Source of the DNA: Bifidobacterium moraviense
Lineage (GTDB): Bacteria > Actinomycetota > Actinomycetes > Actinomycetales > Bifidobacteriaceae
DNA: 64,000 bases
Assembly (NCBI RefSeq): GCF_012932365.1
Contig: NZ_JAAIIH010000013.1
Location: 1 to 64,000, forward strand
Reading direction: 5' to 3'
Numbering within the stretch: position 1 is the first letter of the stretch; each line of letters opens with the position of its first letter. The notes beneath the pieces were generated by a model that was not told the DNA's origin, did not search any database, and saw nothing but the letters and a program-made list of their open reading frames with translations. The translations under genes were made by a program, and so were the position numbers. Below are positions 40,594 through 62,310 of the stretch, piece after piece.

Positions 40594-40644
40594 CGCGCCG
40601 CACGACGTGCGCGAGCCGCGACGCGCCGTCGGAGCGGTGATCCC

Positions 40645-43908: not shown

Positions 43909-44048
43909 CCGCGCGGGGTCGGTTGTCGCGGCGCCGTCACGCCGCCGCTCGCCCGTGCGGCGTGTCCGTATGCGGCGCGGCGGCCCGTGGCACGGCGCGT
44001 GCGGGTCCCGGCTGGCCGTCCTGCCCGTTCGTACGCGAGTTGATCGTG

Positions 44049-44268
44049 GGGTATCTGCATAGTCGGGGTGATTTTCCGAGGTCTGCTGGCAGATATCTGC
44101 GGAGTCAGGGTGCCTTGGGACCCGATATCCCGGGTATCCGGGCAACGGGCTCGTTGCAATGACGCCGTTTTGTCGGCGCCGATGCGGACCGTTTCCCGCG
44201 CCAGACACCCTGACTCTGCAGATACCTGTCTGCAGACCGCCGAAAGTACCCCTGACTCTGCAGATACC
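44049..44268. repeat. 220-bp nested palindromic element, copy 2
   Basis: Ends and inner arms match copy 1 (38619-38839) closely, with the first 65 bp nearly identical. The middle part diverges. As with copy 1, the element is a few hundred bases before a binding-protein gene. Confidence 0.85.
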
Positions 44269-44386
44269 TCGTCCGTTACCTCGTCCGTGCGGCGACCGAA
44301 CGGGTCGCAATGCCTCATCGGGTGATGAATGACCGGTCCGCCGGGTCTTCGCATGGGCGGAGCTGGGGGCCTTCACCGAATCTCCA

Positions 44387-44401
44387 TGCAAACGCTGGCA
44401 A
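44387..44401 (+). promoter_or_regulatory. Operator candidate TGCAA-ACGC-TGGCAA (binding protein 4)
   Basis: Identical over 18 bp to the site before binding protein 2 (36722). It lies 10 bp upstream of the 14-bp inverted repeat at 44412. Confidence 0.65.
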
Positions 44402-44411
44402 CGCACCACGA

Positions 44412-44450
44412 AACCTACTTAGTTAATACTCTAAACTAACTAAGTAGGTT
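44412..44450. promoter_or_regulatory. Perfect 14-bp inverted repeat AACCTACTTAGTTA / TAACTAAGTAGGTT
   Basis: Arms at 44412-44425 and 44437-44450 with an AT-rich 11-bp centre containing TACTCT. The half-word CTACTTAGTT recurs before binding protein 5 at 49018-49027. It is probably a regulator site at or over the promoter; no U-tract is present. Confidence 0.6.
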
Positions 44451-44584
44451 CGGAACGGCGCTCCGGGGACGGAAGACCGGGGCGAGGCAAACCGTCCGGA
44501 CCGGCGAACGCGGCGACGCAGCCGCGACGGGAGACGCCCACGGCGGGCGTCCCGTGGAATCGCATACAGGGAAAGGTGTTACCG

Positions 44585-45895
44585 ATGAAGGCAATGCAGA
44601 AGGCCCTCGCCCTCGTGGCGGCGGGCGCCACCGTGATGTCGATGGCGGCGTGCGGCGGGTCGAACGACTCGTCCGCCGCGAGCAACAAGCTCACCATCTC
44701 CTGGTGGGGCAACCAGCAGCGCAACGACCGCACCAAGCAGGTGAACGACATGTTCTCCGCCGCCAACGACGGCGTGAGCGTGGACGGCCAGTTCTCCGAG
44801 TTCTCCGACTACTGGCAGAAGCTCTCCACCAACGCGGCCGGCAAGTCGCTGCCGGACGTGATGCAGATGGACATGGGCTACATCCAGCAGTACGTGGACA
44901 ACGGCCTGCTCTACGACCTGTCCGACTTCGTGAAGAACGGCACGATCGACCTGTCCGATGTGGACCCGAACGTGGCCGCCGCCGGCCAGTTCGACGGCAA
45001 GACCTACGCCGTCGTCAACGCCACCAACGCCCCGGCGCTCATCTACGACAAGACGCTGCTCGACGGCGCCGGCATCACCGTGCCGGACACCATGACCGTG
45101 GACGACTTCATCTCCATCTCCAAGCAGGTCTACGAGAAGACCGGCGTCAAGACCAACATCCGCTACTACGAGGCCTCCGAGTACATGGAATACCTGCTGC
45201 GCGCCGACGGCAAGACGCTGCTCGAGAAGGGCAAGCTCGGCGTGGACTCCGCCTCCGACCTCGAACCGTACTTCCAGATGTACGAGCAGGGCATCAAGGA
45301 AGGCTGGCACCTGGCCCCGGAGGTGTTCGCCGACCTCAAGATCAGCTCCGTGGAGCAGGATCCGCTGGTCTACGGCACCGCGGCCGACCGCATGAGCTGG
45401 TGCACGTTCAAGTACTCCTCGCAGTTCGGCGCCTACCAGAAGGCCGCCACCAACGGCCACGAGCTCGCCATGGCCGCCTGGCCGTCCGACGACGTGAAGA
45501 AGTCCAACTACGTCAAGCCCAGCCAGTACTGGGTGATCTCCAAGACCAGCAAGAACCCCGAGCTGGCCGCCAAGTGGATCAACTTCTACACCAACGACGT
45601 GGACGCCAACAAGATCCTCCTGACCGACCGCGGCCTGCCGATCAGCACCAAGGTGCTCTCCGCCATCAAGTCCGACCTGTCCGACGCGGACCTCGCCGGC
45701 CTCGACTTCATGGAGAACGTGGTCACCCCGAACTCCAGCACCATCAACCCGCCGAGCCCCGCCGGCTCCTCTGAGATCAACTCCAAGGTGCTGCCGCAGA
45801 TCGAGGAGTCGCTCTGCTACGGCAAGATCGACGCCGCCGCGGCCGCCCAGCAGTTCTTCGACGAGGCGAACGACGCGCTCGCCAAGGCCAAGTGA
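44585..45895 (+). CDS. Solute-binding lipoprotein of a sugar ABC importer (CUT1 type), copy 4
   Basis: A protein of 436 residues, lipobox SMAAC (C23), mature N-terminus LTISWWGNQQRNDRTKQVN. It shares with copies 2 and 3 the segments KTNIRYYEASEYMEYLLRA-like, SVEQDPLVYGTAADRMSWC and LLTDRGLPISTKVL. ATG 44585 lies 8 nt from AAAGG; GTG 44576 would overlap that ribosome site. No permease nearby. It has two candidate operators upstream. Downstream a 16-bp hairpin separates it from the beta-helix enzyme. Confidence 0.92.
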   Translation: MKAMQKALALVAAGATVMSMAACGGSNDSSAASNKLTISWWGNQQRNDRTKQVNDMFSAANDGVSVDGQFSEFSDYWQKLSTNAAGKSLPDVMQMDMGYIQQYVDNGLLYDLSDFVKNGTIDLSDVDPNVAAAGQFDGKTYAVVNATNAPALIYDKTLLDGAGITVPDTMTVDDFISISKQVYEKTGVKTNIRYYEASEYMEYLLRADGKTLLEKGKLGVDSASDLEPYFQMYEQGIKEGWHLAPEVFADLKISSVEQDPLVYGTAADRMSWCTFKYSSQFGAYQKAATNGHELAMAAWPSDDVKKSNYVKPSQYWVISKTSKNPELAAKWINFYTNDVDANKILLTDRGLPISTKVLSAIKSDLSDADLAGLDFMENVVTPNSSTINPPSPAGSSEINSKVLPQIEESLCYGKIDAAAAAQQFFDEANDALAKAK

Positions 45896-45990
45896 CGCCG
45901 GGGCCGGCGGCGAATGACGGCACCCGGCCGGCGGATCGGCCGGTGAGCCGACCGGCGGCGCTGGAACGGCGCGTCGTCTGACGGCCCGGG

Positions 45991-46029
45991 GAAGATGTGC
46001 GGATGGATCAGGCCCATCCGCACATCTTC
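45991..46029 (+). terminator. 16-bp perfect hairpin after binding protein 4
   Basis: GAAGATGTGCGGATGG (45991-46006) pairs with CCATCCGCACATCTTC (46014-46029), loop of 7. No U-tract follows. As after copy 3, this may let the binding-protein message outlast the downstream hydrolase message. Confidence 0.65.
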
Positions 46030-46121
46030 GCGTATCCGCCCCATAACCACCGCCGCGATGCGGACGGCGGATAACGTACAGCGGACGGCGGTCCGCACGA
46101 ACATCGTCAGGGAGGACGAAC

Positions 46122-48749
46122 ATGGCAGGCATTCCCCGCGCCACCGGCTGCAGGGTCACGAAGGAGGCGCTCGCCAACGCGGCGCGCGTCGAGGACATGG
46201 TCTCGATCGAGGCGTTCGGCGCCGAGCCGGGCGGCGACCCGCAGACCAACACGCTCGCGGTCAACCGCGCCATCGCGCGGACGGCGGCGGACGGCGGCGG
46301 CACCGTGCGCGTGCCGGCGGGCCGCTTCGCCGTCTACACGGTGATGCTGGCCAGCGGCGTCAACCTGTACCTCGACGAGGGTGCCGTGCTGGCCGCCGCG
46401 CGCCACGAGGGCCACGACCACGCCGCGCTGTACGACGTGACCGGCCCGGTGGCGGGCGCGATGGGCGGCGGCAACTACGCCGAGCCGGAGGTCAACCGCT
46501 ACGTGGGCCTGCAGGACCACGCGCATACCTACCTGCGCAACAGCTTCGTGCTCGGCGTGGGGCTGCGCGACGTGATGGTCTACGGCCCGGGCCGCTTCGA
46601 CGGCAGCTGGACGGATCCCGTCACCGGCATGCGCCAGGAGGTGCTCACCTACGCCGACCCGGAGGAGCCCGAGCGCCGCGACCGGCCGGGGCATCGCAAC
46701 GGCTGGTGGGGCGACAAGGGCATCGCGCTGGTGGACTGCGAGCACGTGGTGCTGCAGGGCTTCGAGATGCTGCTGTGCGGCCACTTCGCGATCATCGCCA
46801 CCGGCTGCCGCGACCTGCTGGTGGACGGCGTGACCGTGGACTCGCAGCGCGACGGCATCGACGTGGACGGCTGCGAGGACGTGACCGTGCGCGGCTCGCT
46901 CTTCAACACGCTGCACGACGACGCGCTCGTCATCAAGGCGTCCTACGGCGCGCAGCGGTTCGCGCACACCCGCAACGTGCTGGTGGAGGACTGCACGGTG
47001 TCCGGCTACGACGCGGGGTCGGTGCTCGCCGGCGCGCCCGCCACGGACCGTCAGGTGGCGGAGGGCGGCTGCGGGCCGATGGGCCGCGTGAAGCTCGGCA
47101 CCGAGTCCACCTGCGGCTACAGCCTGGTGACCGTCCGCAACGTGCGCTTCGAGCGCTGCATGGGCCTCGCCATAGAGGCGGTGGACGGCTCCGACGTGTA
47201 CGACGTCGTGGCTGAGCATCTGACGATGGACGGCGTGACCACCGCGCCGATCTACATCCGCTGTGGCGACCGCGGCCGCTATCCGGTCACCGGCGTGCAC
47301 GGGCTCGACGGCGGCCAGTGGGTGCGCCCGCAGCATGACGTGCGCCTCGATGCCGCCCAGTGGGTGCTGCCCGACGGCGAGGGCTACGAGCGGCATCCGG
47401 CCAGACGATATGCGCCGGCCTACCGTCGCCGCGCGGTGAGCGTGGACGGCTTCGCGTCCTTCCCCGTGGTGGACGGCCCCGACCCGGTGCACGTCAACCC
47501 CGCCAACGTGCACGTGGACGCGGACGGCGCCGCGCATCCGATGGTCTACGACGATGCGGAAGGCCGCTACGTGCCGGACATGGCCGTGACGCTGGATGCG
47601 CGCGGGGTGGCCGCGCGCGGCAACGCGTTCGGCTGCGAGCGGATCGCCCGCTGCCGCAACATCGAGATCAGCGACGTGCGGGCGCGCGACGTGGATCCGC
47701 GCTATCCGATCATCATCGCCGGCCTCGTGGATGCCAGGGCGCAGAACGTCACGCTGCGCGACATCGACGTTGAGTACCGCGGCGGCCTGACCATGCGCGA
47801 CGCCGTGGAGCAGCGCATGGTGCGCACGCCGTGGACGTACCGTGAGTCCGACATGGTGCCCGACGAGCAGCTCGTCTCTTGGCTCGTCAACCCCGGCCAT
47901 GCGCACAACGAGACGCTGCTGCCGCGCGTGAGCTGGGATCCGGACGCGGCGGACGGCGCGGGCGCGTGGCGCGACGACCCGTGCAACGTGCCCGAGGGTG
48001 TGAGCAACTATCCGGATCCGGACGAGTTCGGCATCCTGCCCGCGTGGGGCCTGTATGCGCGCCACGTGGAGGGACTGGACGTGCAGGGGCTCTCCGTGCG
48101 CGCGCTGACGCCGGAGGGGCGCTATGCCATGGTGCTCGACGACGTGTCCGGCGGCGTGCTGCGTGACGTCGCCGCGGCCGGCGGCAGGCTCGACGGTGAG
48201 GGCTCCGTGCCCGACGTGGCCGTGGTGCGCCATCATCGCAAGCGTCCCACCGGCTACGAGTATCTGCCGGACGAGCCGTACCGCGTGACCGACGTGACCG
48301 ACGTGACGCTGCCGCGCGGCGCCGTGGTGGAGTGCGTGGACGTGACCGCGCCCGAGCCGGGCACGCCCGCCGATTCGCTGTACGCGCTGCCCACGGTGGC
48401 CACGCGGGAGAACGGGTTCGCCTACTCCGCGCTGCGCTCGCCGTCCGAGGGCGGCGATCTGCCCGCCACGGTGTACATGCCGTATCTGACGGCCGTGCCC
48501 GCCGCGCTGCGCCGCCTGACCGTGGGCGTGCGCGCCGCGCTGCACCTGTCCGGACGCGACCCGATCGATCCGCGCGGACTCGAGCCGCCGACCGTCGAGA
48601 TGCCGAATCCGCCCGAGGGCGCCTCGTTCGACGGCTCCGAGTTCGTCTGGACGCCGGCCCCGGAGCAGGAGGGCGCGCACGACGTGGAGGTGCTGCTGCG
48701 TGCGCACGGGCGTACGGCGCGCGGCGTGCTGCGCCTGACGGTGGCGTGA
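46122..48749 (+). CDS. Large beta-helix, GH28-like uronide hydrolase
   Basis: A protein of 875 residues, about twice a usual GH28, with no signal peptide. The N-terminal part (SIEAFGAEPGGDPQTNTLAV) is the pectate-lyase/polygalacturonase helix start. The active-site region has SQRDGIDVDGC and TLHDDALVIKASYG, matching the GH28 acidic pairs; GRVKLGTESTCGYS follows. After about residue 400 comes a long insertion with second-helix repeats (ARGNAFGCERIARCRNIEIS), and the last 130 residues look like a beta-sandwich (SFDGSEFVWTPAPEQEGAHD). Probably an exo-acting enzyme on acidic oligosaccharides. GGGAGGAC precedes the ATG. Confidence 0.75.
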   Translation: MAGIPRATGCRVTKEALANAARVEDMVSIEAFGAEPGGDPQTNTLAVNRAIARTAADGGGTVRVPAGRFAVYTVMLASGVNLYLDEGAVLAAARHEGHDHAALYDVTGPVAGAMGGGNYAEPEVNRYVGLQDHAHTYLRNSFVLGVGLRDVMVYGPGRFDGSWTDPVTGMRQEVLTYADPEEPERRDRPGHRNGWWGDKGIALVDCEHVVLQGFEMLLCGHFAIIATGCRDLLVDGVTVDSQRDGIDVDGCEDVTVRGSLFNTLHDDALVIKASYGAQRFAHTRNVLVEDCTVSGYDAGSVLAGAPATDRQVAEGGCGPMGRVKLGTESTCGYSLVTVRNVRFERCMGLAIEAVDGSDVYDVVAEHLTMDGVTTAPIYIRCGDRGRYPVTGVHGLDGGQWVRPQHDVRLDAAQWVLPDGEGYERHPARRYAPAYRRRAVSVDGFASFPVVDGPDPVHVNPANVHVDADGAAHPMVYDDAEGRYVPDMAVTLDARGVAARGNAFGCERIARCRNIEISDVRARDVDPRYPIIIAGLVDARAQNVTLRDIDVEYRGGLTMRDAVEQRMVRTPWTYRESDMVPDEQLVSWLVNPGHAHNETLLPRVSWDPDAADGAGAWRDDPCNVPEGVSNYPDPDEFGILPAWGLYARHVEGLDVQGLSVRALTPEGRYAMVLDDVSGGVLRDVAAAGGRLDGEGSVPDVAVVRHHRKRPTGYEYLPDEPYRVTDVTDVTLPRGAVVECVDVTAPEPGTPADSLYALPTVATRENGFAYSALRSPSEGGDLPATVYMPYLTAVPAALRRLTVGVRAALHLSGRDPIDPRGLEPPTVEMPNPPEGASFDGSEFVWTPAPEQEGAHDVEVLLRAHGRTARGVLRLTVA

Positions 48750-48780
48750 CGGTGACGTGACGTCGGGACGCGGGTGACGT

Positions 48781-48858
48781 GGCAACGTTGCGATGATCGG
48801 CCGGATTGGCGTCCTCTCGGGGGTCCTTCGATGGTCGTTCGTCGCAACGTTGCGACGG
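48781..48858. repeat. 62-bp repeat family, two cores
   Basis: CAACGTTGCGATGATCGG starts at 48783 and the second core GTCGCAACGTTGCGAC has its CAACG at 48845, exactly 62 bp on. The linker ends TTCGATGGTCGTTCG, as in linkers of the array at 9277. Confidence 0.85.
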
Positions 48859-48934
48859 CGTGACGTGTCGTGCCGCAGCGCGCCGCGATGTCCGTGACGA
48901 TCATCCGTGATCGTTACATCGTTGTTGTGAACAT

Positions 48935-48967
48935 TCGGCCGGATGCGGTGGCGCATCCGGCCGATTT
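48935..48967 (+). terminator. Intrinsic terminator
   Basis: TCGGCCGGATGCG (48935-48947) pairs with CGCATCCGGCCGA (48952-48964) over 13 bp, then TTT. It lies before the promoter of binding protein 5. Confidence 0.75.
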
Positions 48968-49193
48968 CGTCAACGAAACGCAGTTTCTCTGCAAAATAAG
49001 CTAATAATTATCCACAACTACTTAGTTCATGCGTGTAACATAACAGTCGTCGGTCGATGTGGAAGACGGAGTCGCGGAAGCGGAATGTCCCCTCCCGTCC
49101 GCATCGCGGCCGACGCCACGACCGGGCCGCAAGGAAGCGTCCCGGACCGCCGCGAGGAAGCGGCGGATGCACACATGGAACAAGGAGAGAACC

Positions 49194-50498
49194 ATGCACG
49201 GGCATATCCAGATCAGGAAGGCCATCGCCATCGCGGCCGCAGCGGCCGCCGTCGTAGCAGTGGGAGCGTGCGGATCGAGCTCCGGCTCCGGGCAGGACGC
49301 GGGCAAGCTCACCGTCGCGTGGTGGGGCAACCAGCAGCGCAACGAACGCCAGCAGAAGGTGGACGACATGTTCGCCCAGCAGAACGGCATCACCATCGAC
49401 GGCCAGTACTCGCAGTTCGCCGACTACTGGCAGAAGCTCGCCACCAACGCCGCCGGCCGCCAGATGCCGGACGTCATCGCCATGGACTTCGCCTACCTCA
49501 ACCAGTACATCGAGAACGGCCTGCTCGAGCCGCTGGACGACTACGTCTCCTCCGGCAAGCTGAACCTGAAGGACGTGGACGACAACACCGTCTCCGCCGG
49601 CCGCGGCGACGACGGCAAGCTGTACGCGCTGCCCAGCGGCGTGAACGCCCCCGCGGTGATCTACAACAAGACCCTGCTCGACTCGCTCGGCATCACGATC
49701 CCGGACAACTGGACGCTCGACGACTTCCAGAACATCGCCCGCGAGGTGTACGCCAAGACCGGCGTGAGGACCGCGTACGGCTACCTCGACAACACGTACA
49801 ACCTCGAGTACAACCTGCGCGCGCACGACGTCGAGCTCTTCAAGGACGGCAAGCTCGGCACCGAGGACACCACCTACTACGCCGAGTACTTCAAGGTCTT
49901 CGAGAACGGCTACAAGGAAGGCTGGCATCTGCCCGCCGAGCTGTACACCGAGATCACGCTCAACGCCATCGAGCAGGATCCGCTGGTCTCCTTCACCTCC
50001 ACCGACCGCCAGTCGTGGTGCTCGCTGATGTTCTCCAGCCAGGTCACCTCGTTCGCCAGCGTCAACGACTCCAACGAGCTCGCCCTCGCGCCGTGGCCCA
50101 GCGCCAACGTCACCAAGTCCAACTACGTGCACCCGAGCATGTACTGGGCCGTCACCAAGTCGTCCAAGAACAAGGACATGGCCGTCAAGTTCGTGGACTT
50201 CTACACCAACAACACCGACGCGGCGGACATCATGCTCACCGACCGCGGCATCCCGGTGTCCAGCGCGATCATCGACCACATCTCGCCCAAGCTCACCAAG
50301 TACGAGAAGGTGGCCGCCGACTTCCAGAAGGCGACCGTGGCGAACTCCTCGCCGATCAACCCGCCCGCGCCGGCCAAGGCCGCCGAGATCAACTCCCGCG
50401 TGATCAAGGAGGTCGAGGAGCAGATCATGTACGGCAAGATGGACGCCCAGCAGGCCGCCGCCGACTTCGTCAGGCAGTCCGCCGAGGTCCTGGGCTGA
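49194..50498 (+). CDS. Solute-binding lipoprotein of a sugar ABC importer (CUT1 type), copy 5
   Basis: A protein of 434 residues with signal ending AVGAC (C26) and LTVAWWGNQQRNERQQKVD. It resembles copy 1 most (LLEPLDDYVSSGK, DSLGITIPDNWTLDDFQNIA, KVFENGYKEGWHL). ATG follows AAGGAGAG. Next on the strand is a GRP-type sugar transporter, the only importer gene close to any of the five binding proteins, but of a different class. Preceded by an AT-rich promoter with the CTACTTAGTT half-site. Confidence 0.92.
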   Translation: MHGHIQIRKAIAIAAAAAAVVAVGACGSSSGSGQDAGKLTVAWWGNQQRNERQQKVDDMFAQQNGITIDGQYSQFADYWQKLATNAAGRQMPDVIAMDFAYLNQYIENGLLEPLDDYVSSGKLNLKDVDDNTVSAGRGDDGKLYALPSGVNAPAVIYNKTLLDSLGITIPDNWTLDDFQNIAREVYAKTGVRTAYGYLDNTYNLEYNLRAHDVELFKDGKLGTEDTTYYAEYFKVFENGYKEGWHLPAELYTEITLNAIEQDPLVSFTSTDRQSWCSLMFSSQVTSFASVNDSNELALAPWPSANVTKSNYVHPSMYWAVTKSSKNKDMAVKFVDFYTNNTDAADIMLTDRGIPVSSAIIDHISPKLTKYEKVAADFQKATVANSSPINPPAPAKAAEINSRVIKEVEEQIMYGKMDAQQAAADFVRQSAEVLG

Positions 50499-50733
50499 GT
50501 CCTGGGCTGTCCGATCCCGCGAGGGGATGGTCGCCGCGTGATCGCATGATAGTCGCCGTTCGGGTCCGCGCATACTCAGGCGGCCGGGCCCGGACGGCGA
50601 TCGCATGTCCGGGGCGGACGCGCGCCGTCCGTGTGCCGTCCGTGGCCATCGCGCGCCGGTTCCCGGCAGTCTCCGGCCCGGTCCGCCATCGCCGCGATCG
50701 ATCATCCCCGATCCCACAGGAGTTCCCGACGAG

Positions 50734-51591
50734 ATGAACATCGTCATCGGCCTGGCCCCCGCCGTGTTCTGGGGCATCCTGCCGCTGTTCCTGCGCAAGG
50801 TGGGCGGCGGCTCGTTCCGCAGCCAGCTCGTGGGCACCGCCCTCGGCATCCTCATCGTGGCCGCCGCCATCCACGTGGCCAGCGGCTACAGCGCGCCCGC
50901 CGCCGTGTGGGTGCCGTTCCTGCTGTCCGGCTTCTGCTGGAGCTTCGGGCAGGCCGGGCAGTACCACTGCTACGAGCGGCTCGGCGTGAGCGTCACCATG
51001 CCCGCGTCCACTGCGCTGCAAGTGATCGGCAACAGCCTCATCGGCGGCCTGTTCTTCCACGAATGGGACGGCATGCACGACATCGCGCTGAGCCTCGGAG
51101 CCGTGGTGCTCATCGTCATCGGCGTGTTCGCGGCCAACGGCCGGGGCGCGTCCGGAGGCGGTTCGGCGGTGGGCGCGGCGCGTGCGCGCGACTGGGCGGT
51201 CCTCGTGCTGTCCACCGCCGGATACTGGCTGTACTCCGCGTTTCCGCTCACCGTGACCGTCGACTCCAAGCTCGAGGGCTTCCTGCCGCAGGCGCTCGGC
51301 ATGCTCGCCTCCGCGGTGCTCATCGGGCTCACCCATGCGCGCGACATCGTGGACGGCGCGAGCATGCGCAACATCGGCGGCGGGCTCATCTTCTCAGTCG
51401 CCGCCGCCACCTACCTCATGTCGATGACGCTCAACGGCATGGTGAACGCCTTCGTGCTTTCCCAGCTCAACGTCGTCGTCTCCACGCTCACCGGCGCGAT
51501 CGTGCTCAGGGAGACCCCGCGCGAGAAGATCCCCGGCATCGCGATCGGGCTGGCGATCCTCATGGCGGGCGCCACGCTCATGGTGCTCTAG
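50734..51591 (+). CDS. GRP-family sugar transporter (GlcU/RbsU/RhaT-like)
   Basis: An integral membrane protein of 285 residues with about ten hydrophobic segments, beginning NIVIGLAPAVFWGILPLFL. Conserved features include FCWSFGQAGQYHCYERLGVS in the third to fourth helix, STALQVIGNSLIGGLFFHEW, and the mirrored SQLNVVVSTLTGAIVLRETP near the end, typical of the drug/metabolite superfamily's sugar branch. Such carriers import monosaccharides such as glucose, ribose or rhamnose by ion symport. CAGGAG lies 12 nt before the ATG, a long spacing. It sits between a binding protein and GH28 and may recover released monosaccharide. Confidence 0.85.
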   Translation: MNIVIGLAPAVFWGILPLFLRKVGGGSFRSQLVGTALGILIVAAAIHVASGYSAPAAVWVPFLLSGFCWSFGQAGQYHCYERLGVSVTMPASTALQVIGNSLIGGLFFHEWDGMHDIALSLGAVVLIVIGVFAANGRGASGGGSAVGAARARDWAVLVLSTAGYWLYSAFPLTVTVDSKLEGFLPQALGMLASAVLIGLTHARDIVDGASMRNIGGGLIFSVAAATYLMSMTLNGMVNAFVLSQLNVVVSTLTGAIVLRETPREKIPGIAIGLAILMAGATLMVL

Positions 51592-51655
51592 CGCCCGGCG
51601 CCCCGTTCGCGGCGCTCCGCAAGATTCCCCGACGTCCAAGGAAGGACCGATTCCC

Positions 51656-52918
51656 ATGACCGACTTCATCTACGCCAATCCCGTGTCCGACGACCCGTCC
51701 GGCTACGCCGCCGGCCTGCAGGCGCTGCTCGACCGCTGCTCCGGCGAAGGCGGCGGCACCGTGTCCGTCACCGCCCCCGGCGTGCACCTGTGCGACGGAC
51801 TGCGCCTGCGCAGCCGCGTGACGCTCGAGCTCGCCGAGGGCGTCACGCTCAGGGCCAGCGGCGACGAATCCACGTACGAGCACCGCCCCGGCCCGTTCGA
51901 GCTCAACGCCAACGAGACGCCCATCTGCGCGTTCGTCCACGGCAAGGGGCTCACCGGCGCGGCCATCCGCGGCAAAGGCGTGATCGACGGCAACTACGAG
52001 CGCTTCGTCCTGCCCGGGCAGGGCCCCGAGGTGCAGCACATCGCCACGTTCGCGTATCCGCGTCCCATGACCGTCTACCTCGAGGACTGCGAGGACGCCG
52101 TCATCGAGGGCGTGACCGTGGGCAACTCGCCGTTCTGGACCATCCATCTGGTCGGCTGCCGCAACACGGTGGTGCGCGACGTGGCCATCCGCAACGAGAT
52201 GCGCATGCCCAACACCGACGGCATCGACGTGGACCGCTGCGACAACACGCTCATCGAGCGCTGCGACATCGTCACCGGCGACGACGGCGTGTGCCCCAAG
52301 TGCACCGAGGAGACCGCGCGCTACGGCGGCTGTTCCAACCTCACGGTGCGCGACTGCCGGATCGTCACCCGCAGCTCCGCCGTCAAGCTCGGCTCGTCCA
52401 GCTTCGCCGACTTCGAGAACATGACGTTCGAGCGCCTCACGATCCGCGACTCGAACCGCGGCCTGGCGTTCCAGCTGCGCGACCCGGGCTCGGCGCGCAA
52501 CATCGTGTTCCGCGACGTGACGATCACCACGGCCACGTTCTCGCGCGAATGGTGGGGCTCCGCCGAGGCGATCTACCTGACGATCCTGCCGCGCACCGAC
52601 GCCACGGACATGACCGGACGCGTGATCGAACACGTGCGCTTCGAGCGGGTGACCGGCACCTGCGGGCTGCCGGTGGTGGCCGTGGGCCATGCGCCCGGCG
52701 CGATCCGCGACGTGACGCTCGACGGCGTGGAACTCGAGGCGAGCGGCGGCGCGGGCGGCGACGGCGATGCGGGCGGTGCCGGCGCGGACGGCGTCTCGTA
52801 CGACGTGGACGTGCGCCCGTGGCGCGGCGGCGACGCCAAGGTGCCGGTGCCCGCCGCGGACATGCTGGGCGACGGTCCCGCGTTCCGCAGGGAGGCGTGC
52901 CGCATCCGCTTCCGGTGA
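51656..52918 (+). CDS. GH28-family enzyme, atypical active site
   Basis: A protein of 420 residues without signal peptide. It has the beta-helix repeats and GH28 motifs PNTDGIDVD and TGDDGVCPK, then VTRSSAVKLGSSS where classical members have GHG. FQLRDPGSARNIVF and a Gly/Ala/Asp-rich insertion (about residues 365-378) follow. Compared with the enzyme at 31683 it shares the missing histidine. Cytoplasmic action on short galacturonides is likely. ATG follows AAGGAAGGA; it is 64 bp after the GRP transporter, so probably in one operon with it. Confidence 0.83.
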   Translation: MTDFIYANPVSDDPSGYAAGLQALLDRCSGEGGGTVSVTAPGVHLCDGLRLRSRVTLELAEGVTLRASGDESTYEHRPGPFELNANETPICAFVHGKGLTGAAIRGKGVIDGNYERFVLPGQGPEVQHIATFAYPRPMTVYLEDCEDAVIEGVTVGNSPFWTIHLVGCRNTVVRDVAIRNEMRMPNTDGIDVDRCDNTLIERCDIVTGDDGVCPKCTEETARYGGCSNLTVRDCRIVTRSSAVKLGSSSFADFENMTFERLTIRDSNRGLAFQLRDPGSARNIVFRDVTITTATFSREWWGSAEAIYLTILPRTDATDMTGRVIEHVRFERVTGTCGLPVVAVGHAPGAIRDVTLDGVELEASGGAGGDGDAGGAGADGVSYDVDVRPWRGGDAKVPVPAADMLGDGPAFRREACRIRFR

Positions 52919-52952
52919 CCGCCGCGGCATGGCATTTGCGTGCCGGTTGGGC

Positions 52953-53044
52953 GGGTATCTGCAGAGTCGGGGTGATTTTCCGAGGTCTGCGGGCAGATAT
53001 CTGCCGACGGAAGGCGAAAAGTACCCCTGACTCTGCAGATACCC
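52953..53044. repeat. Nested palindromic element, 92-bp deleted copy 3
   Basis: The left end (GGGTATCTGCAGAGTCGGGG, then the segment up to GCAGATATCTGC) is joined directly to the right end (CGACGGAAGGCGAAAAGTAC up to GATACCC) of the full element. The junction falls in the shared inner word GCAGATATCTGC/GCAGATACCTGC, so one recombination between the inner arms explains it. Confidence 0.85.
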
Positions 53045-53199
53045 CGTTCGGGTGGTGCGCGGACGCGGTGTGATGCGCCTCGCCGCCGACGAGACGCCCC
53101 GTCCGGGCGGTCGGTGGTCGGTCTGCGGGCGGGCTCGATGCCGCGTGCGACGGAACGGCAGGCCGGCGGTCCGCCGACGATTTGTCCCTACGGTCATTC

Positions 53200-53340
53200 G
53201 CGGCAGCGTTGCGGCCGACGGCCGGATTGCGGGGCCATGCATGGGCTTTCGGTGGCCATCCGTCGCAACGTTGCGATGATGAGCCAAGTTGTGGTTCTTT
53301 CGGAGACTCTTCGTTGGTCGTCTGTCGCAACGTTGCGATG
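53200..53340. repeat. 62-bp repeat family, three cores
   Basis: Cores begin at 53204 (CAGCGTTGCGG, degenerate), 53266 and 53328 (CAACGTTGCGATGA), again with steps of exactly 62 bp. Confidence 0.85.
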
Positions 53341-53482
53341 AGTGGAGAGGTGCGGTGAGCGGAGGGGCGCGATGAGTGGGGCGTTGCGATGAGTGGAGAC
53401 GTCGCGCGATGATGCGTCAGGGCCGACGCCCGACGAGGCGGGACCGGCGGCCCGTCGCGGCGCCCGCCCGTCCCGCATCGTG

Positions 53483-53523
53483 TGCAACGATTGACGCGGC
53501 ACATGGTTCGCTGATCGTACAAT
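53483..53523 (+). promoter_or_regulatory. Promoter of the third LacI gene with a partial operator match
   Basis: TACAAT (53518-53523) lies 7 nt before the ATG at 53531, suggesting a leaderless transcript. Upstream, TGCAACGATTGACG (53483-53496) matches the first 11 bases of the uxaC operator candidate (TGCAACGATTGGCAA), which would suit autoregulation. Confidence 0.5.
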
Positions 53524-54607: not shown

Positions 54608-55046
54608 TCCGCTCCGGCGCCGGGCCGGCCGGGCGCCGGCCGGGCACTGGCGGACACGGCACGGCGGACGCGTGCCGTGCGCGACACGCGCGGCCGGTAC
54701 AACGCTGAAACGAACATCGTAAATGTTCATTTCCTGTTCATGTTGACGCCAATGCACATGTTCGGTGTGCGATCGCTCACCTAATCGCACGGTTTCGCTC
54801 GCGGATGTTCGCTTTCGTGCGCCGGTGCGGCAAACGGTGGCTCGCAATGCGTCCGTAACGTGTGGTGGCGGTAGGGTTGGGCCGTGTCGGGCGGGGCGGA
54901 AGACCTTCGGGAGCCGTCTCGGATGTGCGATCGAACCGCGCAGGGTTCCGTTTCCTGCATGTGAGATGTAACATCGAATCGTTCATGACCGGCATGGCGA
55001 CCGTCCCCACGGACGGTCGAGACGACCAACGAAAGCGGGGAGCGAC
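54608..55046. other. Intergenic region upstream of the aldolase operon
   Basis: No gene. It contains the palindromic cluster 54712-54780. From about 54800 to 55030 there is no recognised element apart from a purine-rich stretch before the aldolase start. Confidence 0.5.
54712..54780. promoter_or_regulatory. Repeated ATGTTC half-sites and a GCGATCGC palindrome upstream of the aldolase operon
   Basis: GAACAT-N5-ATGTTC (54712-54728) is a perfect inverted repeat; further TGTTCATG and ACATGTTC words follow to 54763. GTGTGCGATCGCTCAC (54765-54780) is a palindrome with one mismatch. A TTGACG -35-like word lies at 54743-54748. The region is AT-rich compared with its flanks, as expected of a regulated promoter. 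Confidence 0.5.
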
Positions 55047-56069
55047 ATGGTGTTCGCGATGACGACCAACGCACTGAAGGGCATGCTCAGGGACGCGCAC
55101 GAGCACGGGTACGCGTACCCGGCCATCAACGTGAGCAACCTCGACACCGGCATCGCCGCCATGGCGGGACTCGAGCAGGCGAAGTCCGCCGGGTTCATCC
55201 AGATCAGCGTGGGCGCGGCCAAGCAGGCCGGTCCCACCGGCGACCCGGTGGAGGGCTCCATCATCCTGGGACGCACCCTGCGCGATCTGCGCAAGGCCCA
55301 GCACGTCCCGATCGCCATCCACACCGACCACTGCCACGCCGACATGGTGGACGCGTGGCTCGTCCCGCTGCTCAGGGAGCTCAAGGTCCTCAAGGACGCC
55401 GGCGAGGAGAAGATCTTCGACTCGTTCATGTTCGACGGCTCGCACGACGAGATCCACGACAACGTGGCCACCATCCGGCGTCTCCTGCCGCTCGTCAGGG
55501 ACGTCGACGGCGTGCTGGAGGTCGAGGCCGGCGGCAAGTGGGGCGGCATGGAGGACGGCGTGGCCGACAAGGCCGTGTTCTCCACCCCGGAGGACGTCAA
55601 GGAGATCCAGCGCACGTTCGAGGACGCCGGCCTCACCGCCGACGACTACCTGCTGGCCGTCGCCTTCGGCAACGCGCACGGCACCGCCGTGGTGCCGGAC
55701 CTCCACCCCGAGCTGCTCAGCGAGATCGCCGAGAAGACCGGCGAGCGCAACCTGTACGTGTTCCACGGCGGCTCCGGTTCCCCGGACGACGACGTGCGCG
55801 CCGCGGTCGCCAACGGCGTCGTCAAGATGAACGTGGACACCGACACGCAGTACGCCTACACCGCCGGCGTGGACGGGTTCCTCACGGACGCGAACGGCGT
55901 GCAGCGCTCGCACCGCGAGGGCAAGAAGTTCTTCGACCCGCGCCACTGGAACGCCGCGGGCCGCAAGTCGATGACCGCCAAGGTCGTCGAGGTCGCCGAA
56001 CTGCTCGGCTCCGCCGGGCGCGCCGAGGCCGTCGAGTACCGCTCGGTGCTCGACCCCGTCGTCGCCTGA
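55047..56069 (+). CDS. Class II fructose-bisphosphate aldolase-type enzyme
   Basis: A protein of 340 residues. The zinc-binding HTDHCH (H92, H95 region), the later FGNAHGTAVVP and FHGGSGSPDDDVRAAVANGV, and VKMNVDTDTQYAYT are those of class II FBP aldolases. It condenses or cleaves DHAP with glyceraldehyde 3-phosphate; tagatose-bisphosphate specificity cannot be excluded. ATG follows GGGGAG. It is the first gene of a tight run with a histidine phosphatase and a TIM, in front of uxaC. A regulated, catabolic copy rather than the housekeeping one seems likely. Confidence 0.9.
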   Translation: MVFAMTTNALKGMLRDAHEHGYAYPAINVSNLDTGIAAMAGLEQAKSAGFIQISVGAAKQAGPTGDPVEGSIILGRTLRDLRKAQHVPIAIHTDHCHADMVDAWLVPLLRELKVLKDAGEEKIFDSFMFDGSHDEIHDNVATIRRLLPLVRDVDGVLEVEAGGKWGGMEDGVADKAVFSTPEDVKEIQRTFEDAGLTADDYLLAVAFGNAHGTAVVPDLHPELLSEIAEKTGERNLYVFHGGSGSPDDDVRAAVANGVVKMNVDTDTQYAYTAGVDGFLTDANGVQRSHREGKKFFDPRHWNAAGRKSMTAKVVEVAELLGSAGRAEAVEYRSVLDPVVA

Positions 56070-56138
56070 CGCCTCGCTTCGCCGCACGTCGCACCATCAG
56101 CACCAACACCACCATCATCAAGGGAGATGCATCACCAC

Positions 56139-56792
56139 ATGACCGGACAGCTTTACCTTCTCCGCCACGGACAGACCTACTGGGCCCTCTCGGGGCAGCA
56201 CACCGGACTCGCCGACGTGCCGCTCACCGCCAAGGGCGTGGAGCAGGCCGCGGACGCCGGAATCCGCGTCAAGGCGCGCCACCCCGGCGACTTCGCCGCC
56301 GTCTACGTCTCGCCGCTGCTGCGCGCCCAGCAGACCGCCGAGGCCGCGGGGCTCGACGCGGAGACGCTCGACGACCTGCACGAATGGGACTACGGGCGCG
56401 CCGAGGGCCGCACGCGCGCCGACCTGTCCGCCGCGCTCGGACGCCCCTGGGACCTGTGGGAGGACGGCCCGGCCGTGCTGCCGCGCGAGCTGGGCGGCGA
56501 GCGCGTGGAGACGCTGCCCGACGGCACGCCCGTGACCGTGGCCGGCAAGGACGGCGAGACGCTCGACGAGGTGTACGCGCGCGCCGGCCGCGTGGTCGCC
56601 AGGGTGCGCCCGCTCATCGACGAGGGGCGGGACGTGCTGCTGGTGGCGCACTCGCACATCATCCGCGAGGTGACCGTCGCGTGGCTCGGCCTGCCGGGCA
56701 TCGCCGGACGCAGCCTCGAACTCGGCACCGCGCAGTTCTCGGTGCTGGGCGTGCACAAGGGCCAGCCCGTCATCCAGCACTGGGGGCTGTGA
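56139..56792 (+). CDS. Histidine phosphatase superfamily protein (phosphoglycerate mutase-like)
   Basis: A protein of 217 residues. It has the phosphohistidine motif LLRHGQT, the SPLLRAQQTAEAAGL segment, the acid in DLHEWDYGRAEGRT, and the second histidine in VAHSHIIREV. The arrangement fits small phosphatases or cofactor-dependent phosphoglycerate mutases; the short length and lack of long mutase loops favour a phosphatase. ATG 56139 is 12 nt from AGGGAG; ATG 56127 is too close to it. Its TGA overlaps the TIM start (TGATG), so the two are coupled. Between an FBP aldolase and TIM it could act on a triose or hexose phosphate, for example fructose 1,6-bisphosphate. Confidence 0.85.
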   Translation: MTGQLYLLRHGQTYWALSGQHTGLADVPLTAKGVEQAADAGIRVKARHPGDFAAVYVSPLLRAQQTAEAAGLDAETLDDLHEWDYGRAEGRTRADLSAALGRPWDLWEDGPAVLPRELGGERVETLPDGTPVTVAGKDGETLDEVYARAGRVVARVRPLIDEGRDVLLVAHSHIIREVTVAWLGLPGIAGRSLELGTAQFSVLGVHKGQPVIQHWGL

Positions 56793-58249
56793 TGCCCGCA
56801 CGTCCCCGCCGCCGGCCCCTGGTGATGGGCAACTGGAAGATGAACCTCAACCATCGCGAGGCCGCGCGCTGGATGGTCGACTACTCGGGCATGAACGACG
56901 ACTGGGAGCGGCGCATGGCCGCCTCCGGCCAGCCGCTCGACCGGCCCGAGATCGGCATCCTGCCGCCGTTCACCTCCATCCAGTCGTTCATCGACACCAT
57001 CGACGAGCGCGGCATGGACGGGGACCTCGCGGTGGGCGCGCAGACCGTGAGCGACGTGGCCAAGGGCGCCTACACCGGCGACATCTCGGCCGACATGCTC
57101 TCCGCACTCGGCTGCAGATACGTGCTGGTGGGCCACTCCGAGCAACGGCGCTACCACCCGGAGGACGACGACACGTTCGCCACGAAGATGCGCGTGGTGC
57201 TCGACAACGGCATGCTGCCGATCCTGTGCATCGGCGAGACCGCGCTCGGCCGCGAGCACGGCATCGGCATCGACTACGCGCTGCGCCAGCTCGCCGAGGC
57301 CGTCAGCCGGATGAGCTGCGAGGACATGAGGCGCGTCACCATCGCCTACGAGCCGGTGTGGAGCATCGGCACCGGCAACGTGCCGGACCTCAACGTCATC
57401 GAGTCGGCGCTTGCGGACATCCGTGACTTCATCAACGCGTCGTTCGGCGCGGACATCGCCGCGGACGTGCGCATCCTGTACGGCGGCTCGGTCAAGCCCG
57501 ACAACGCCGCCGCGATCATCCGCCTCAACGACATCGACGGCTTCCTGGTGGGCGGCGCGAGCCTGGACCCGCGCTCGTTCGCCAAGATCTGTCACCGCGT
57601 CGCCGAGTCGTCGGTCAACCGCCGCCAGCGTCCGGCTTCGCGCGGGTTCAAGCGCCCGGGGCGCATGACGATCGCCGAGTTCGAGCACCCGGATCTCGAG
57701 CCCGCCCGCCGCGCGCTCGCCGCCGACGTGGCGCGCGACTTCCCCGATTCGCATTCGTGGCGTCTCTCGCTCGCTCTGGCCGCCTACCGCACCGCCGGAT
57801 TCGCGTGGCTGGAGGTGATGGCCGTGCAGGAGCTCATCGAGGCGGTGGACGCCGCCGGCACGCGCATCGAGGAGGGCCCGGACATGCTGCGCGACATCAT
57901 CTGGGATTCGCGCCGGCTCATCATCGAGGCCATGATGGCGTTGGTGGAGCGCGACGCCGTGCAGGGCATGTATTCGGTGGAGCAGTGGCTCGTGTCCTCC
58001 GATCCGCGGCTCACGCACGACGAGCGCTGCAAGCGTCTGGTGCAGTGCTACGCCTCGAGCACGTGCGAGCGCGCGTGGCGCATGTTCGCGTCCGACGAGC
58101 CGTACGAGGCGTTCAGCACGGCGTTCATGGAAGGCTATCTCTCCTGCGACGCGAACACGGACAACCGCCGGTGGCGCCGGCGCGGCATCGACCGCTACAA
58201 GACGCGCCCGTGGTTCCCGAACCACGGCGACGGCACCGAGGAGGTGTAG
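56792..58249 (+). CDS. Triosephosphate isomerase with an unrecognised C-terminal extension
   Basis: A protein of 485 residues; usual TIMs have about 250. Residues 10-275 are a complete TIM: GNWKMN (N14, K16), GHSEQRRY with H115, AYEPVWSIGTG with E187, and the phosphate loops LYGGSVKPDN and LVGGASL. A basic linker (RRQRPASRGFKRPGR) leads to residues 292-485, a mostly helical region rich in Trp, Arg and acidic residues (FAWLEVMAVQELIEAVD, CERAWRMFASDEPYEAF, DRYKTRPWFPN). I do not recognise this part. No stop codon or clear ribosome site separates the two, though an internal start at M292 is possible. Coupled to the phosphatase gene by TGATG. Confidence 0.88.
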   Translation: MPARPRRRPLVMGNWKMNLNHREAARWMVDYSGMNDDWERRMAASGQPLDRPEIGILPPFTSIQSFIDTIDERGMDGDLAVGAQTVSDVAKGAYTGDISADMLSALGCRYVLVGHSEQRRYHPEDDDTFATKMRVVLDNGMLPILCIGETALGREHGIGIDYALRQLAEAVSRMSCEDMRRVTIAYEPVWSIGTGNVPDLNVIESALADIRDFINASFGADIAADVRILYGGSVKPDNAAAIIRLNDIDGFLVGGASLDPRSFAKICHRVAESSVNRRQRPASRGFKRPGRMTIAEFEHPDLEPARRALAADVARDFPDSHSWRLSLALAAYRTAGFAWLEVMAVQELIEAVDAAGTRIEEGPDMLRDIIWDSRRLIIEAMMALVERDAVQGMYSVEQWLVSSDPRLTHDERCKRLVQCYASSTCERAWRMFASDEPYEAFSTAFMEGYLSCDANTDNRRWRRRGIDRYKTRPWFPNHGDGTEEV

Positions 58250-58302
58250 GTGCGGCGTCCGGCCGCGGAACCCGCCGGGGGAGGGGCGTCGGAGCCCGTT
58301 CC

Positions 58303-58317
58303 TGCAACGATTGGCAA
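58303..58317 (+). promoter_or_regulatory. Operator candidate TGCAA-CGAT-TGGCAA (uxaC)
   Basis: Fourth copy of the 15-bp pattern. A CATACT -10-like word lies at 58347-58352, between the site and the uxaC start at 58440. It implies that uxaC has its own promoter in addition to any read-through from TIM. Confidence 0.65.
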
Positions 58318-58439
58318 CCGGTCCGTGCGCGGCGCGCGCACGGCGTCATACTGGATGCTGCGAAGTACATTTCCCGTGCCTGCGCCGCGCGAGACGTGGT
58401 GGTGCGGCGGCCGGGATCCATCGGCAAAGGAGTCGAAGC

Positions 58440-59849
58440 ATGAGCTTCCTGGATGACGATTACCTGCTGACCACCGACGTGGCCAAGGAGCTGTTCCACG
58501 GCACGGCCGAAAGCCTGCCCATCGTGGACTACCACTGCCATCTGAGCCCCAAGGAGATCTACGAGGACGAGAACTTCTCCGACATCGTGGCCGCCTGGCT
58601 CACCGACGGCAACAACTACGGCGACCACTACAAGTGGCGTCTGATCCGCGCCAACGGCACGCCGGAAGAGCTCATCACCGGCAAGGGCGACCCGTGGGAG
58701 AAGTTCCAGGCGTACGCCGCCACGATGGAGAAGGCCATCGGCTCGCCGGTCTACCTGTGGACGCACATGGAGCTGCGCCGCTACTTCGGCATCACCGAGA
58801 CGCTCACCACGCGCACCGCCAAGGCCATCTACGACCAGACCAACGAGATGCTGGCCACCAAGGACTTCACGCGCCGCGCGCTGCTGCGCCGCATGGGTCT
58901 GGACACCATCTGCACCACCGACGACCCGGTCGATTCCCTCGAGTACCACAAGCGCTTTGCGGAGGACGGCGGCGACACGTTCGCGATGATCCCGGCCATG
59001 CGCCCGGACAAGGCCCTCAACCCGGACAAGCCCGGCTTCGCCGAGTGGGTGGACCAGCTCGAGCAGGTCACCGGCCGCACGGTCAACTCGTTCGACGACA
59101 TGATGGCCGGCATCAACGACCGCGTGGACTTCTTCCACTCGCTGGGCTCGCGCCTGTCCGACCACGCCGCGGACCTCATGGTGTACGCCGAGGCCACGGA
59201 CGCCGAGCTGGACGAGATCCTCTCCAGGGCGCGCGCCGGCAGGGAGCTGACCGCGGACGACCTGGCCAAGTACCGCACCGCGCTGTTCCTGGAGCTCATG
59301 AAGATCTACGACGCGCACGACTGGACCATGCAGCTGCACATCCACGCCATGCGCAACGTCAACTCGGTGGGCTTCGCCGAGCACGGCGCGGACACCGGCT
59401 TCGACGCCCTGAACGACCGCTCGATCGCCGAGCCGCTGGCGCAGCTGTTCGACGCGGCCGCCCGCCGCGGCTCGATCCCGCGCACCATCATCTACTCGCT
59501 CAACCCGAACGACTACCTGCCGATCGCCACCGTGATGGGCTGCTTCCAGGGCGGCGGCAAGAAGCAGCGCATGGCGCTGGGCAACGCCTGGTGGTTCAAC
59601 GACACCCGCACCGGCATCCGCCGCCAGCTCGAGGTGATGGCCGAGGAGTCGCTGCTGGGCAACTTCGTGGGCATGACCACCGACTCCCGCTCGTTCCTGA
59701 GCTTCCCGCGCCACGAGTTCTTCCGCCGCATCCTGTGCGAGCTGGTGGGCGAGTGGGCCGAGCGCGGCGAGGTCCCGAACGACATCGACTACCTCAGGCC
59801 GCTCATCGCGGACGTGAGCTACAACAACGCGAAGGCGCTGTTCGCCTGA
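58440..59849 (+). CDS. uxaC: Uronate isomerase (glucuronate/galacturonate isomerase)
   Basis: A protein of 469 residues, against 470 for E. coli UxaC. It has the amidohydrolase-type metal motif DYHCHL (H32, H34), then GDHYKWRLIRANG, THMELRRYFGIT, TICTTDDPVDSLEYH, MRPDKALNPDKPGF, VDFFHSLGSRLSDHA and GWWFNDTRTGIRRQ-like NAWWFNDTRTG, ending FLSFPRHEFFRRILCEL. It converts D-glucuronate to D-fructuronate and D-galacturonate to D-tagaturonate, the entry step of hexuronate catabolism. ATG follows AAAGGAG. The glucuronidases and GH28 enzymes of this window would supply its substrates, and UxaB would take the product. Confidence 0.95.
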   Translation: MSFLDDDYLLTTDVAKELFHGTAESLPIVDYHCHLSPKEIYEDENFSDIVAAWLTDGNNYGDHYKWRLIRANGTPEELITGKGDPWEKFQAYAATMEKAIGSPVYLWTHMELRRYFGITETLTTRTAKAIYDQTNEMLATKDFTRRALLRRMGLDTICTTDDPVDSLEYHKRFAEDGGDTFAMIPAMRPDKALNPDKPGFAEWVDQLEQVTGRTVNSFDDMMAGINDRVDFFHSLGSRLSDHAADLMVYAEATDAELDEILSRARAGRELTADDLAKYRTALFLELMKIYDAHDWTMQLHIHAMRNVNSVGFAEHGADTGFDALNDRSIAEPLAQLFDAAARRGSIPRTIIYSLNPNDYLPIATVMGCFQGGGKKQRMALGNAWWFNDTRTGIRRQLEVMAEESLLGNFVGMTTDSRSFLSFPRHEFFRRILCELVGEWAERGEVPNDIDYLRPLIADVSYNNAKALFA

Positions 59850-60132: not shown

Positions 60133-61359
60133 ATGGCATTAGCACCATCATTGAAGCTCCCCACGATTACGCACATCCGCGCGTACTCGATGGGCGGCGC
60201 TGCGGCCAAGGTCCACGGCCAGGGCGGCGGCGACTACCACGATCAGGGCAAGGACCACTGGATCGACGACCACATCGCCACCCCGATGTCCAAGTACGCC
60301 GAGTACAAGCAGTCCCGCCAGTCCTTCGGCATCAACGTCCTGGGCACCCTCGTCGTCGAGGTCGAGGCCTCCGACGGCACCACCGGCTTCGCGATCTCCA
60401 CCGCCGGCACCGTGGGCTGCTTCATCGTCGAGCACCACCTGTCCCGCTTCGTGGAGGGCAAGCGCGTCGACCAGATCAAGCTGATCCACGACCAGATGCT
60501 CAACGCCACCCAGTACTACTCCGGCGGCGGCGGCGTGGTGATCAACACCATCTCCTGCGTCGATCTGGCCCTGTGGGACCTCTACGGCAAGGTCGTCAAG
60601 CTCCCGGTCTACAAGCTGCTCGGCGGCGCCGTGCGCGACGAGATCCACTTCTACGCCACCGGCGCCCGCCCGGACCTGGCCCAGAAGATGGGCTTCATCG
60701 GCGGCAAGATGCCGACCCACTGGGGCCCGGCCGACGGCGACGAAGGCATCGCCAAGGACATCGCCACGCTCAAGGAGATGCGCGAGCGCGTGGGCGACAA
60801 CTTCTGGCTGATGTTCGACTGCTGGATGAGCCAGGACGTCAACTACGCCACCAAGCTGGCGCACGCGGCCGCCCCGTACAAGCTCAAGTGGCTGGAGGAG
60901 TGCTTCCCGCCCCAGCAGGTGGAGTCCTACCGCCAGCTCAAGAAGAACATGCCGGCCGGCATGCTCATGACCACCGGCGAGCACACCGGCACCCTCGAGG
61001 GCTTCAAGGAGCTCTCCGAGGCCGGCGTGGACATCCTGCAGCCCGACGTCGGCTGGTGCGGCGGCGTGACCTCGCTGTGCGAGATCGCGGCCGTGGCCAA
61101 GTCCCGCGGCCAGCTCGTGGTGCCGCACGGCTCCTCCGTGTACTCGCACCACGCGGTGATCACGTTCACCAACACGCCGTTCAGCGAGATGCTCATGACC
61201 TCCCCGCACGCCGACTACGTGCGTCCGCAGTTCGACCCGGTCCTCATCGACGAGCCGGTGCCGCACGACGGCATCATCACCGCCGAGGAGCTGGACAAGC
61301 CCGGCTTCGGCGTCGAACTCAACCGCGAGTGCCCGCTCGAGCGTCCGTTCGAGCACTGA
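60133..61359 (+). CDS. rhmD: L-rhamnonate dehydratase
   Basis: A protein of 408 residues of the enolase superfamily. It matches the E. coli RhmD pattern over the whole length: GGGDYHDQG...[70 protein letters not shown]. Mg ligands are D229 (MFDCWMS), E255 (WLEECFP) and E283 (TGEHTGT); the catalytic His is H332 in [11 protein letters not shown]. It turns L-rhamnonate into 2-keto-3-deoxy-L-rhamnonate; related sugar acids are accepted by known members. Followed by rhmA and an IclR gene, the same gene content as in enterobacteria. Confidence 0.93.
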
Positions 61360-61366
61360 GTCCCTC

Positions 61367-61432
61367 AGCCGCCTCCGCATGCCGCGCATCCCGGATCCGT
61401 CCGGGGCGGTGCGCGGGGGCGGCTGTCGTTTT
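61367..61432 (+). terminator. Terminator-like hairpin after rhmD
   Basis: AGCCGCCTCCGC (61367-61378) pairs with GCGGGGGCGGCT (61413-61424) with one G-U pair; TTTT follows at 61429. May give partial termination before rhmA. Confidence 0.6.
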
Positions 61433-61539
61433 CCCGCAACACGCAAGACTCCGGTTCCGCGGGCCGGCGCCAGGACGCGCCGCGCGGACCGGGAAAGAGC
61501 CAAGACAAGGCCAAGCAAGCCAGAAAGGACATGTCAAGG

Positions 61540-62310
61540 ATGACATCCGTCGCCCTGCCCCATAACGAATTCAAGGCCGCGCTCAAGGAGGGCAGGCAGC
61601 TCAAGGGCCTGTGGATCGCCATGGGTTCGGCAACCTCCATCGAGATCGCCGCGGAGATCGGCTACGACTGGCTGCTCATCGACGGCGAGCACGGTCCGAA
61701 CGACCTCAACACGATCCTCGACCAGCTGCGCGCCGTGCACGGCTACCCGACCGTCCCGATCGTGCGTCCGCCGCACGCCGACCCGGTGCTCGTCAAGCAG
61801 GTGCTGGACCTGGGCGCCCAGACGCTGCTGCTGCCGATGATCAACACCCGCGAGGAGGCCGAGCTGATGGTCAAGGCCATCAACTACGCCCCCGAGGGCA
61901 TCCGCGGCGTGGGCGGCGTGATCGCCCGCTCCGGCCGCTGGGGCCTCATCCCGAACTACATGCGCGACGCCAAGAAGGAGCTCTGCCTGATCCTGCAGGT
62001 CGAGTCCCAGGAGGGCCTCGACAACATCGACGAGATCGCCTCCGTGGAGGGCGTGGACGCCATCTTCATCGGCCCCGCCGATCTGTCCGCCTCGCTCGGT
62101 CACCCGGACGACGCCGGCGCCATCCAGGACCAGGTGAAGTACGCGTTCGACCGCATCAAGGCGCACGGCAAGGCCATCGGCTCGCTCGCGTTCGATCCCG
62201 CCACCGCGAAGAAGTACTTCGAGTGGGGCGCCTCGTTCGTGGCCGTGGCCGGCGACACCGACGTGTACGTGAGGGGCCTGAAGGCCGAGCTCGCGCACTA
62301 CGCCGACTGA
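61540..62310 (+). CDS. rhmA: 2-keto-3-deoxy-L-rhamnonate aldolase (HpcH/HpaI family)
   Basis: A protein of 256 residues. Motifs of the class II HpcH/HpaI aldolases: GLWIAMGSATSIEIAAEIGY, WLLIDGEHGPND (catalytic His), PIVRPPHADPVLVKQVLDLG, QVESQEGLDNIDEIASVEGV (metal Glu) and IFIGPADLSASLGHPDD (metal Asp). It should cleave 2-keto-3-deoxy-L-rhamnonate to pyruvate and L-lactaldehyde. Some relatives also accept 2-keto-3-deoxy-gluconate or -glucarate, which would matter here because no KDG aldolase is in view. ATG 61540 is 10 nt from AAAGGA; ATG 61531 is too close to it. Confidence 0.9.
   Translation: MTSVALPHNEFKAALKEGRQLKGLWIAMGSATSIEIAAEIGYDWLLIDGEHGPNDLNTILDQLRAVHGYPTVPIVRPPHADPVLVKQVLDLGAQTLLLPMINTREEAELMVKAINYAPEGIRGVGGVIARSGRWGLIPNYMRDAKKELCLILQVESQEGLDNIDEIASVEGVDAIFIGPADLSASLGHPDDAGAIQDQVKYAFDRIKAHGKAIGSLAFDPATAKKYFEWGASFVAVAGDTDVYVRGLKAELAHYAD

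Follow-up and report, generated by a model that had tools for sequence, protein, structure and literature searches.

A divergent aldolase, phosphatase and triosephosphate isomerase cassette of Bifidobacterium that probably returns triose carbon to the phosphoketolase shunt

How can triose carbon re-enter the phosphoketolase shunt in a bifidobacterium, and is the gene set that may carry it there devoted to uronates? The question is raised by a stretch of 64,000 nucleotides (the window) from a member of the Bifidobacterium family with a genome of 2.56 Mb, in which genes for an aldolase, a histidine phosphatase and a triosephosphate isomerase (TIM) stand ahead of uxaC. We consider it likely that this triad is a central-metabolism cassette returning triose carbon to the shunt. 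The reading is built on observed gene content, gene order and homology, on the absence of phosphofructokinase (PFK) and of fructose bisphosphatases (FBPases) of classes I-III, and on the paired divergence of aldolase and phosphatase. The features of the locus are collected in Table 1.

Table 1. Features of the triad and its surroundings (positions in the window)
Feature	Position	Strand	Support
Palindrome GAACAn7TGTTC, possible operator	54712..54728	.	Palindromic also in B. avesanii and B. vespertilionis
Class IIA fructose-bisphosphate aldolase (divergent lineage)	55047..56069	+	PF01116, 1e-65
Histidine phosphatase, GPM2 (Rv3214)/YK23-SHB17 type	56127..56792	+	PF00300, 1e-40
Triosephosphate isomerase domain	56792..57601	+	PF00121, 2e-73
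C-terminal domain fused to TIM	57602..58249	+	Conserved in 10 further Bifidobacterium loci
TGCAACGnnTGGCAAC motif before uxaC	58303..58318	+	PWM 22-25 at uxaC/uxaB/sugar-binding sites
uxaC, glucuronate/galacturonate isomerase	58440..59849	+	NCBIfam 570 bits vs cut-off 387

All four genes are where the first-pass annotation had placed them, except that the frame read as TIM is longer: its 485 aa hold a full TIM and a C-terminal domain of 215 aa (residues about 271-485). For the phosphatase, ATG 56139 appears a more likely start than 56127 because the relatives begin there. The claim that the phosphatase is translationally coupled to TIM is borne out by a TGATG overlap, in which stop and start have one base in common. 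The junction is identical in B. avesanii and B. vespertilionis, the two named species that hold the closest relatives of this cassette; the coupling is therefore conserved in the window clade. The further claim, that the triad is coupled ahead of uxaC, has to be given up: 190 bp lie between the TIM-fusion gene and uxaC and contain a conserved motif of uxaC's own, and uxaC is probably a separate transcription unit. A scan for a promoter consensus gave no match. Chance is excluded as an explanation of the order aldolase-phosphatase-TIM because 11 loci from different species retain the triad. In one genome (G046) aldolase and phosphatase stand without an adjacent TIM, a sign that the core of the cassette consists of this pair.

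The metabolic setting agrees with what had been presumed of the host, namely, that it is a phosphoketolase fermenter, as bifidobacteria are known to be: phosphoketolase and transaldolase are present and no PFK was found in the genome, and phosphoketolase with PFK absent is what marks the bifid shunt. FBPases of classes I, II and III (PF00316, PF03320, PF06874) were found in none of 61 family genomes, the host included, in a search that was positive in control genomes and covered these three of the classes I to V (class IV being the IMPase family, PF00459, and class V PF01950). With no class I-III FBPase found in the family, the step from triose to hexose phosphate is left without an obvious enzyme; nor did the titles and abstracts screened contain a bifidobacterial FBPase recognised as such by name. 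The window phosphatase itself belongs to PF00300, which is not a classical FBPase class. The two genera of the family that do have PFK, each represented by one incomplete genome (G008 and G009; loci L090, L091, L092), possess fructose-bisphosphate aldolase (FBA) and lack a strong phosphatase match.

The aldolase has the PF01116 domain with the metal-ligand histidines and catalytic acid residues of class II enzymes. In its match to the FBA of Mycobacterium tuberculosis (3ekl, 6e-48) the metal and catalytic motifs DH, E, H and H are aligned. The protein scores below the NCBIfam equivalog cut-offs. In these motifs it resembles the class IIA FBAs of M. tuberculosis and E. coli, from which it differs in being a protein of 340 aa in a separate lineage. 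It probably acts on fructose 1,6-bisphosphate (FBP), and perhaps in the formation of sedoheptulose 1,7-bisphosphate (SBP). The gene is not an extra copy: its product is the sole PF01116 protein of the host. An aldolase of the DeoC/class-I type (PF01791) was considered as an alternative FBA and rejected, as no such protein was found in the host genome. One PF01116 protein per genome is the rule wherever FBA is present, G008 with two being the exception. In 11 whole genomes (the window's, that of B. avesanii and nine of the tissieri group) this single protein is of the cassette type, 70-91% like the window aldolase; the usual bifidobacterial lineage is only 36-42% like it.

The phosphatase has the catalytic residues of histidine phosphatases (RHG, Arg, Glu and a second His), and R13, H14, G15, R66, E86 and H175 are invariant across 22 homologues. 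By single sequence its best PDB match is yeast YKR043C (SHB17/YK23), with M. tuberculosis GPM2 close behind. A profile of the 22 bifidobacterial homologues reverses this order (2a6p, GPM2, 8e-36; YKR043C, 8e-27; next family, 3e-19). The predicted structure (pLDDT 94.7) also lies nearest to 2a6p (Z 27.9, rmsd 1.4 over 189 residues, 36% identity; next rows at Z ~24), and YK23, second by profile, stands lower in the fold comparison. GPM2 is, then, the closest solved histidine phosphatase. This enzyme (GPM2/SUP1, Rv3214) belongs, like that of the window, to branch 1 and has the RHG, EWDYG..EG and HxH motifs in common with it; the window phosphatase differs in standing in an operon with aldolase and TIM and in an insert of ~25 residues before the GET motif. 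YK23/SHB17, likewise an FBPase that needs no metal and whose role in yeast is riboneogenesis, has GQxTGLxDxPLT, SPxLRAxQT, EWxYGxxEG and RPWxxWxDG in common with the window phosphatase, but is eukaryotic and longer.

What is known of GPM2 bears directly on the substrate. It was purified from M. tuberculosis as a second, metal-independent FBPase, and its kcat/Km with FBP is 3.4e4 per M per s. Besides this activity in vitro, it supports gluconeogenesis in the living cell: when glpX and gpm2 are both mutated, growth on gluconeogenic carbon fails (PMC4535450). In M. tuberculosis it backs up GlpX, whereas the host considered here has no class I-III FBPase. Because of this absence the window phosphatase is the best candidate in the host for the release of fructose 6-phosphate (F6P) from FBP. 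We regard it as a probable FBPase and possibly an SBPase as well.

This second activity underlies an alternative, according to which the cassette mainly serves an SBP route: the aldolase would join dihydroxyacetone phosphate (DHAP) with erythrose 4-phosphate from phosphoketolase to form SBP, and the phosphatase would release sedoheptulose 7-phosphate (S7P), transaldolase being bypassed. YK23, the best single-sequence match, is cited as both FBPase and SBPase (PMC4535450), and 3oi7 is SHB17/YKR043C with SBP. Moreover, xylulose 5-phosphate (X5P), F6P and S7P are all substrates of the B. longum phosphoketolase, which is part of a working engineered SBP cycle in E. coli (PMC10468489). However, the host has a transaldolase and therefore needs no bypass, and both structure and profile place the phosphatase nearer to GPM2 than to SHB17. 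We consider a mainly SBP-directed cassette unlikely and retain the return of triose carbon through FBP.

The distribution of the two core enzymes in the family extends the argument. Phosphatase homologues occur in 143 of 151 family genomes (threshold 1e-10), the matches being strong in nearly all larger genomes and weak in several reduced ones. Counts compiled by hand, and driven in part by the reduced genomes, place phosphatase and FBA together in 56 of 83 genomes, with neither in 16, the phosphatase only in 8 and FBA only in 3 (72 concordant); for the 62 genomes of good quality the corresponding figures are 51, 10, 1 and 0 (61 concordant). The Fisher values of 1e-8 and 1e-10 for this co-occurrence ignore shared ancestry and are descriptive only. 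In several incomplete genomes the phosphatase occurs but FBA does not. Among the loci read from outside the cassette clades, none had the phosphatase gene adjacent to fba.

For aldolase and phosphatase alike, the trees place the proteins from the window and from B. avesanii with the tissieri group, with strong support, and apart from their usual bifidobacterial counterparts. The two proteins thus appear to have replaced the usual pair of the family together, in the window clade and in the tissieri group. The trees are unrooted and cover the two proteins only, so that the change may have run either way, by transfer or by differential loss; an exchange of the two genes as a set would be the simplest reading. 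A joint replacement argues for function as a pair. New as well is the finding that two groups carry, instead of the usual pair, a cassette whose TIM is a fusion protein.

The paired divergence also bears on the view that the phosphatase acts on sugar phosphates in general, or as an acid phosphatase, in overflow or phosphate scavenging, and that its place beside aldolase and TIM is incidental. GPM2 is indeed also a broad acid phosphatase: it accepts many substrates, and its Km for FBP is in the millimolar range (PMC4535450). A real exception to the joint occurrence is the complete genome G085 (L049, L050), in which two phosphatases of the GPM2 type occur and class II FBA is absent; its gene content is not explained by the FBPase reading and speaks for a general phosphatase. 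Against this stand the divergence of aldolase and phosphatase as a pair, the coupling to TIM conserved in the window clade and the absence of any other FBPase of classes I-III. An incidental association therefore seems to us improbable, and an FBPase working with the aldolase is preferred.

It remains to consider the uronates. The original proposal for this locus was a pathway dedicated to uronates, in which the triad would be induced with uxaC and would bring uronate carbon into the shunt. In its favour, the triad lies directly before uxaC in three related species, and both uxaB and uxaC are identified with confidence. The B. vespertilionis locus runs uxaB, a LacI gene, aldolase, phosphatase, TIM and uxaC, so that the triad also follows right behind uxaB and the LacI gene; this order shows that the neighbourhood of the cassette is uronate-related in the window clade. 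In the window, uxaB is separated from the LacI gene by a sugar-binding protein, GH28, GH43 and other genes (36626-53521).

The regulatory motifs are less favourable to that proposal. The 16-bp motif TGCAACGnnTGGCAAC occurs not only before uxaC, but also at uxaB (35022-35037) and at two genes for sugar-binding proteins (36722-36737 and 44387-44402), and it recurs before uxaC in B. avesanii and B. vespertilionis. Five matches were observed against 0.49 expected; since the uxaC region served to define the motif, the match there holds by construction and the other three strong ones are independent. The motif is a likely operator of a pectin/uronate regulator. Before the triad the motif is absent, the best PWM score being 6.7 against 22-25 at the strong sites. 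A further match lies at L054:1465, before a gene of 483 aa without a Pfam match. The palindrome upstream of the aldolase gene has six sites in the host genome and none in the control; it was rejected as a regulon marker, since the six sites lie near rpsD and unrelated genes and form no coherent set. Elsewhere in the window (60133-62310) and at L054:10028-12431 there are genes for an L-rhamnonate dehydratase (above cut-off), a KDR-type aldolase, an SDR and an amidohydrolase, a set that points to a non-phosphorylated route for L-rhamnose next to the pectin enzymes.

Three observations speak against a bridge specific to uronates: the cassette aldolase is the only class II FBA of the genome and the phosphatase is found in nearly every bifidobacterium with FBA; eight tissieri-group loci have the triad without a uxaC match within the 20 kb examined; and the triad is not preceded by the motif that uxaC and uxaB have in common. 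The link of the cassette to uronates in particular is weak, and we find a dedicated uronate pathway quite unlikely. The chemistry of the same proposal fares better. The route from triose phosphate through FBP and F6P into the shunt is a well-supported inference from the presence of phosphoketolase, the absence of PFK and of class I-III FBPases, and the grouping of the phosphatase with proven FBP phosphatases.

The TIM of the cassette is the second copy in the genome, the canonical one lying at G000:C1:416143. Its catalytic motifs are present (GNWKMN with K, GHSEQRR with H, AYEPVWSIGTG with E and the phosphate loop YGGSV). The fused domain was seen only in the window and in the 10 other loci; it is mostly helical by a low-confidence prediction (model confidence 63.8). 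It gave no convincing match in Pfam or among PDB sequences, nor, at that model confidence, in fold comparison.

We presume the following mechanism, with substrates, flux and direction inferred from homology, gene content and gene order. TIM would equilibrate glyceraldehyde 3-phosphate (GAP) and DHAP, the aldolase would condense the two into FBP, and the histidine phosphatase would remove a phosphate without metal, via a phosphohistidine intermediate, to give F6P. Because the cassette holds the only class II aldolase and the best FBPase candidate, it would make hexose phosphate from any triose-yielding substrate, the triose carbon re-entering the phosphoketolase shunt. Uronates would be one source of triose in the window clade and not the defining purpose of the cassette. 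SBP, which this aldolase could form from DHAP and erythrose 4-phosphate, may be a further substrate of the phosphatase.

A set of phosphoketolase, aldolase, bisphosphatase and TIM is also what synthetic non-oxidative glycolysis, or the SBP cycle (SCTPK), has in common with the host; the SCTPK is an engineered pathway in E. coli that uses Synechocystis GlpX (PMC10468489), whereas the genes of the host are natural and a cycle can only be presumed. A natural loop of this kind, feeding F6P and S7P made from triose phosphate to phosphoketolase, with the phosphatase as the FBPase of the family, is a tentative extension that we think possible rather than likely.

What is new for the family is that the phosphatase is probably its general FBPase, as judged by homology and occurrence: a candidate for this function is named that is present in almost all members. 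If this is true, annotations in many genomes and metabolic models would be corrected, and the return of triose carbon to the shunt would be shown.
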